Assembly (NCBI GenBank): GCA_003569705.1
Contig: BGOU01000002.1
Span: 124,001 to 188,000 of the forward strand
Length of the DNA: 64,000 nucleotides
Reading direction: 5' to 3'
DNA from: Nitrosarchaeum sp.
GTDB taxonomy: Archaea > Thermoproteota > Nitrososphaeria > Nitrososphaerales > Nitrosopumilaceae
The notes beneath the pieces are model-generated. The model was not told the origin of the DNA. It was given only the letters and a program-made list of their open reading frames with translations, and did not search any database. Position numbers and translations under genes: made by a program. Below are positions 7,915 to 8,008 of the stretch, piece after piece. Position 1 is the stretch's first letter; each line of letters begins with the position of its first letter.

Positions 7915-8008
7915 TGGTGCTCCAGCCGGGATTTTCATCGTTAGATTTTGAACCCGGGATCACTGCCTTGAAAGGGCAGTATGCTTGACCGGTCTACACC
8001 ACTGGAAC
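7915..8008 (-). tRNA. trnE: tRNA-Glu(TTC) with a 15-base intron in the T-loop; CCA encoded
   Basis: Read on the minus strand: acceptor GTTCCAG (8008-8002) pairs with CTGGAGC (7925-7919), discriminator A at 7918, encoded CCA at 7917-7915. The anticodon stem CTGCC/GGCAG closes the loop CTTTCAA with anticodon TTC (7972-7970). The T-stem CCGGG/CCCGG encloses 22 bases instead of 7. Removing 15 of them gives the standard loop TTCAAAT. The mature tRNA is 76 bases plus CCA. The T-loop interruption would make standard covariance scores low, so this gene could be missed. Confidence 0.93.
7932..7946 (-). other. tRNA-Glu intron, 15 bases, between T-loop positions 59 and 60
   Basis: The precursor folds as a bulge-helix-bulge. 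The central 4-bp helix is TTCA (exon) with TGAA (intron), the two 3-base bulges are AAA and AAT, and the inner hairpin is TC-TAAC-GA. The outer helix is the T-stem itself. Cutting after the second base of each bulge releases 15 bases and leaves exactly TTCAAAT. Splicing would need the archaeal tRNA splicing endonuclease; positions outside 37/38 require the broad-specificity type known from Crenarchaeota and Thaumarchaeota. Confidence 0.88.

Follow-up and report, generated by a model that had tools for sequence, protein, structure and literature searches.

Can a tRNA gene whose T-loop has grown from the usual 7 to 22 nucleotides still yield a normal tRNA, and where would it have to be cut? This question is raised by the minus strand of the window (the whole stretch of 64,000 nucleotides that was analysed), in which an earlier note had proposed a tRNA-Glu with a 15-base intron in the T-loop. 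The proposal was confirmed by the paired stems, the anticodon and the behaviour of the spliced form. Nucleotides 8008-7915 (minus strand) form a complete tRNA-Glu(UUC) gene, in which every stem is paired when the cloverleaf is drawn by eye: GTTCCAG TG GTGT..GCAT A CTGCC CTTTCAA GGCAG TGATC CCGGG TTCAAA[ATCTAACGATGAAAA]T CCCGG CTGGAGC A CCA. Counting the intron and a 3′ CCA, the gene measures 94 nt (91 nt if CCA is left out), and orthologues occur in 17 of the 18 genomes of the genus. The 5′ exon (8008-7947), 99-100% identical within the genus, comprises tRNA positions 1-59, namely, the 5′ strand of the acceptor, the D arm, the anticodon arm, the 5′ strand of the T-stem and TTCAAA; its anticodon TTC (UUC; 7972-7970) reads GAA. 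The 3′ exon (7931-7915) carries T60, the 3′ strands of the T-stem and acceptor, the discriminator A (7918) and CCA (7917-7915). Some relatives have CTA, TCA or ATA in place of CCA; an encoded CCA tail was set aside on this ground, and the trailing CCA may be incidental. The gene is otherwise complete, and its interruption lies outside 37/38.

The tRNA is readily overlooked. ARAGORN called no tRNA in the unspliced precursor, with or without its anticodon-intron option, and the Rfam tRNA model gave 17.7 bits, under the 29-bit cut-off, as expected from the suggestion that gene finders would miss it. Once 7946-7932 were removed, ARAGORN called tRNA-Glu(ttc); precise removal thereby restores a standard tRNA, to which intron-less orthologues are identical at the junction. 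tRNAs were inventoried by means of searches and selected stretches of the genome, an assembly of 10 contigs (1.46 Mb; 97.4% complete). A second Glu(UUC) gene, which the earlier note had named as a point against this locus, was sought across the 97.4%-complete genome and was not found, Glu(CTC) being the only other tRNA-Glu. The single-contig relatives G001, G002, G018 and G087 gave one Glu(UUC) match each. GAA was counted 828 times and GAG 180 times in the window open reading frames of at least 150 aa. Given this codon use and the sole Glu(UUC) gene found, the gene at 8008-7915 should be functional and essential.

The interrupted T-arm can be drawn as a bulge-helix-bulge (BHB), and every part that had been listed beforehand was present exactly. 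The outer helix is the T-stem. The central helix joins TTCA (7952-7949, positions 54-57) to TGAA (7937-7934), a pairing kept in 20/20 distinct sequences, four of which changed U-A to C-G on both sides. This 4-bp helix stands between two 3-nt bulges: the 5′ bulge AAA (7948-7946), with a predicted cut AA^A, has its first two bases fixed and A, T or C as the third in relatives; the 3′ bulge AAT (7933-7931), with a predicted cut AA^T, has A, G, C or T in the middle and a fixed last T, which is position 60. The inner mini-hairpin TC-TAAC-GA (7945-7938) has a freely variable tetraloop and a TC/GA stem that is fixed save for a compensatory CC/GG in L132. In ViennaRNA calculations on the window T-arm, the BHB reached -8.0 vs -9.8 kcal/mol for the minimum-energy fold, and is thus 1.8 kcal/mol less stable than this simpler internal-loop fold; the BHB was itself the minimum-energy fold in two of four relatives tested. 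The minimum-energy fold of the window T-arm, which has a 3-bp ATC/GAT stem, does not hold up as the conserved structure: its third pair fails in 8/20 sequences and a fourth pair in 20/20. Drawn with four pairs, this competing inner stem fails in 35% of its cells.

Excision of 7946-7932 leaves the T-loop TTCAAAT, and the 15-nt intron ATCTAACGATGAAAA lies between positions 59 and 60, with cuts predicted at 7947^7946 and 7932^7931. Because of the A-run, four pairs of cuts are equivalent when the window sequence is taken by itself, all of them giving TTCAAAT, and the same intron might in principle be spliced at 56/57, 57/58 or 58/59 in this genome. The relatives separate these choices, which takes the argument further than the earlier note did. 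In them, TTCAAA is followed by A, T or C, and any of A, G, C or T can precede the final T, with no change in the exon letters; boundary bases vary on the intron side only, so that 59/60 alone always restores TTCAAAT. The standard BHB rule also places the cuts at 59/60, and splicing at any of the three other positions is therefore given only a slight chance. Removal yields exactly TTCAAAT, as had been claimed; the intron-less orthologues at the same locus carry exactly this loop and lack exactly these 15 nucleotides, and the BHB intron at 59/60 gained strong support from the comparisons.

The insert is conserved far outside the window. Within the genus, 17 of the 18 genomes hold an identical intron; the remaining one, which is 84% complete, gave no match. 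A pattern scan of named public genomes returned 66 loci, nearly all in Nitrosopumilaceae. Among these, 53 have an insert of 15 nt in this very place, with a variable tetraloop, a near-constant TC...GA and nearly invariant flanks, and 13 are intron-less, with exactly TTCAAAT between mostly similar flanks; the recurrence of the insert at one site and its clean absence elsewhere place it beyond chance. T-loop introns of more distant genera measure 14-19 nt. One locus (L162, JAGXRG010000055.1) is labelled Chitinophagaceae bacterium and holds a thaumarchaeal tRNA-Glu with the identical intron; it is likely a mis-binned contig. When the 20 distinct intron-bearing sequences were aligned, every tRNA and BHB pair was kept in all of them. 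The central helix changed from TTCA/TGAA to TCCA/TGGA in 4/20 sequences, and the inner helix from TC/GA to CC/GG in 1/20, U-A being replaced by C-G on both sides in each case.

These data bear on two readings without splicing. A decayed tRNA-Glu pseudogene that had gained a T-loop insertion by chance would be in keeping with the failure of standard finders, but such a relic would not be expected to have flawless stems, to be conserved at one locus throughout the family, to show compensatory changes in its helices or to be the sole Glu(UUC) gene found in its genome, and we consider it extremely improbable. Retention of the insert in a mature tRNA that functions with a 22-nt T-loop hairpin has nothing direct in its favour beyond a hairpin that the insert can form, and is equally implausible in view of the conserved exon-pairing TGAA/TGGA and bulge anatomy, the exact intron-less orthologues, and the T-loop motif required for the elbow, which is regained only through excision.

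The preferred reading, a spliced intron, would need an endonuclease and a ligase, and genes for both are present in the host. Two EndA-family genes (C8:26424 and C7:243152) each encode both tRNA-intron-endonuclease domains; the catalytic-type His (IDHAP segment) is present in one EndA-like subunit and missing from the other. An α2β2 endonuclease type has been reported for Thaumarchaeota (PMC4090602). The two subunits fit this type and would presumably assemble into an active tetramer. The RtcB exon ligase is also encoded (593.9 bits to PF01139). In the mechanism that we propose, the transcript would fold with the T-stem as outer helix, the 4-bp helix that pairs exon TTCA with intron TGAA, and the two 3-nt bulges; the two-subunit EndA-type tRNA-splicing endonuclease would cut each bulge after the second base; and RtcB would join the exons, thereby producing the normal T-loop UUCAAAU. 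We infer the cleavage, ligation, timing and enzyme stoichiometry of this scheme. Judged from genomic comparison, the locus is very probably the single-copy tRNA-Glu(UUC) gene of an ammonia-oxidising archaeon of Nitrosopumilaceae, both active and essential, whose minimal 15-nt BHB intron at 59/60 would be cut out by EndA, with RtcB joining the exons. Elsewhere in this genome (G000:C7:242302-243403), about 0.8 kb separates tRNA-Glu(CTC) from the gene for the EndA-like subunit without the catalytic-type His.

The intron belongs to a well-known type, among whose members it is well supported but unremarkable. Archaeal tRNA introns range over 11-129 nt, with medians mostly of 12-25 nt, and 59/60 is among their known sites (PMC4090602); tRNAscan-SE 2.0 has a dedicated model and lists 107 non-canonical introns in Thaumarchaeota genomes (PMC8450103). 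A length of 15 nt is therefore typical, and the earlier view that it approaches the lower limit finds no support. The non-canonical BHB introns of Thermoproteales and Thaumarchaeota (PMC4090602, PMC8450103) are alike in the 4-bp helix, the two 3-nt bulges, the 59/60 site and the length; nothing essential differs, and what is documented here is the particular tRNA, its clade-wide history and its covariation. Among the papers searched, none names this particular tRNA-Glu intron in Nitrosopumilus, and the intron is possibly already in tRNA databases. Two tRNAs of the same genome have D-loop introns whose anatomy is BHB-like by eye, but at a different site. The initiator tRNA-Met (L044, G000:C3:18435-18691, bases ~77-166) has a 15-nt intron with a 4-bp helix, a 2-bp inner stem and a 4-nt loop, and ARAGORN calls tRNA-Met(cat) only once the intron is removed; tRNA-Arg(CCU) (L045, G000:C3:142443-142700) has an intron of ~18 nt and is likewise recognised only after removal. 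Further disrupted tRNAs of this genome (L043, L080 and L081) are probably Gln(CTG), Trp and Leu(TAA), with seemingly one or two introns each. In other families of the order (L200, L201 and L203-L205), the same tRNA-Glu(UUC), presumably served by the same enzymes, has canonical 37/38 introns, which differ in being longer and in the anticodon loop; no T-loop intron was seen in these genes where they were readable to the end.

In the family genomes with both genes on one contig, about 2.5 kb separates the tRNA-Glu(UUC) gene from nuoL, whether the gene holds the intron or not. Owing to this shared neighbourhood, intron presence and absence concern a single locus. At least eight changes are needed to explain the distribution on a nuoL tree of 58 genomes, and the tree leaves their direction unfixed. 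Several independent losses in Nitrosopumilaceae are the simple reading because introns occur across most of the family. Family f10 of the same order has longer inserts at the same T-loop site (L208-L212). At the same syntenic locus, one genome of genus g19 (L330, G035:C1:951300-952400) carries a very different intron-less tRNA-Glu(UUC), with T-loop TTCGAAT and anticodon loop CTTTCAC, which is possibly a replaced gene.

The covarying helix also touches the mature tRNA. Exon TCCA goes with intron TGGA in eight intron-bearing genomes, which belong to three genera (g2, g17 and g22), so that their mature tRNA would have C at position 55, the site of the pseudouridine in contact with the D-loop. Another eight genomes, all of g17 (L230-L233 and L235-L238), have an intron-less tRNA-Glu(UUC) with TCCAAAT, the predicted spliced product of their sisters. 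The C55 label requires three changes on the nuoL tree of 58 genomes, and in the four genomes whose Glu(CTC) gene was inspected (G018, G087, G092 and G033), this gene has TTCAAAT. C55 proved not to be confined to intron-bearing Glu genes, as TCC at 54-56 also occurs in tRNA-Lys of the window genome and in the Lys and Thr(TGT) tRNAs of G033; its presence in tRNA-Lys and tRNA-Thr marks C55 as a tolerated change in the group. We give about even chances to the view that the intron shaped the mature tRNA, in which selection for a stronger helix would have fixed U55→C together with A→G in the intron, and C55 would have outlived the intron as a scar in g17, with the partner Glu(CUC) genes keeping TTCAAAT.

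The spliced reading of 8008-7915 mends an annotation gap; without it, the genome would seemingly have no tRNA for a codon in very common use. With genes that hold the intron and genes that lack it at one syntenic locus, the family provides a clean natural series for studying intron loss, and the family-wide set allows one to ask whether the constraints of a splicing helix leave a mark, such as C55, on the mature tRNA.
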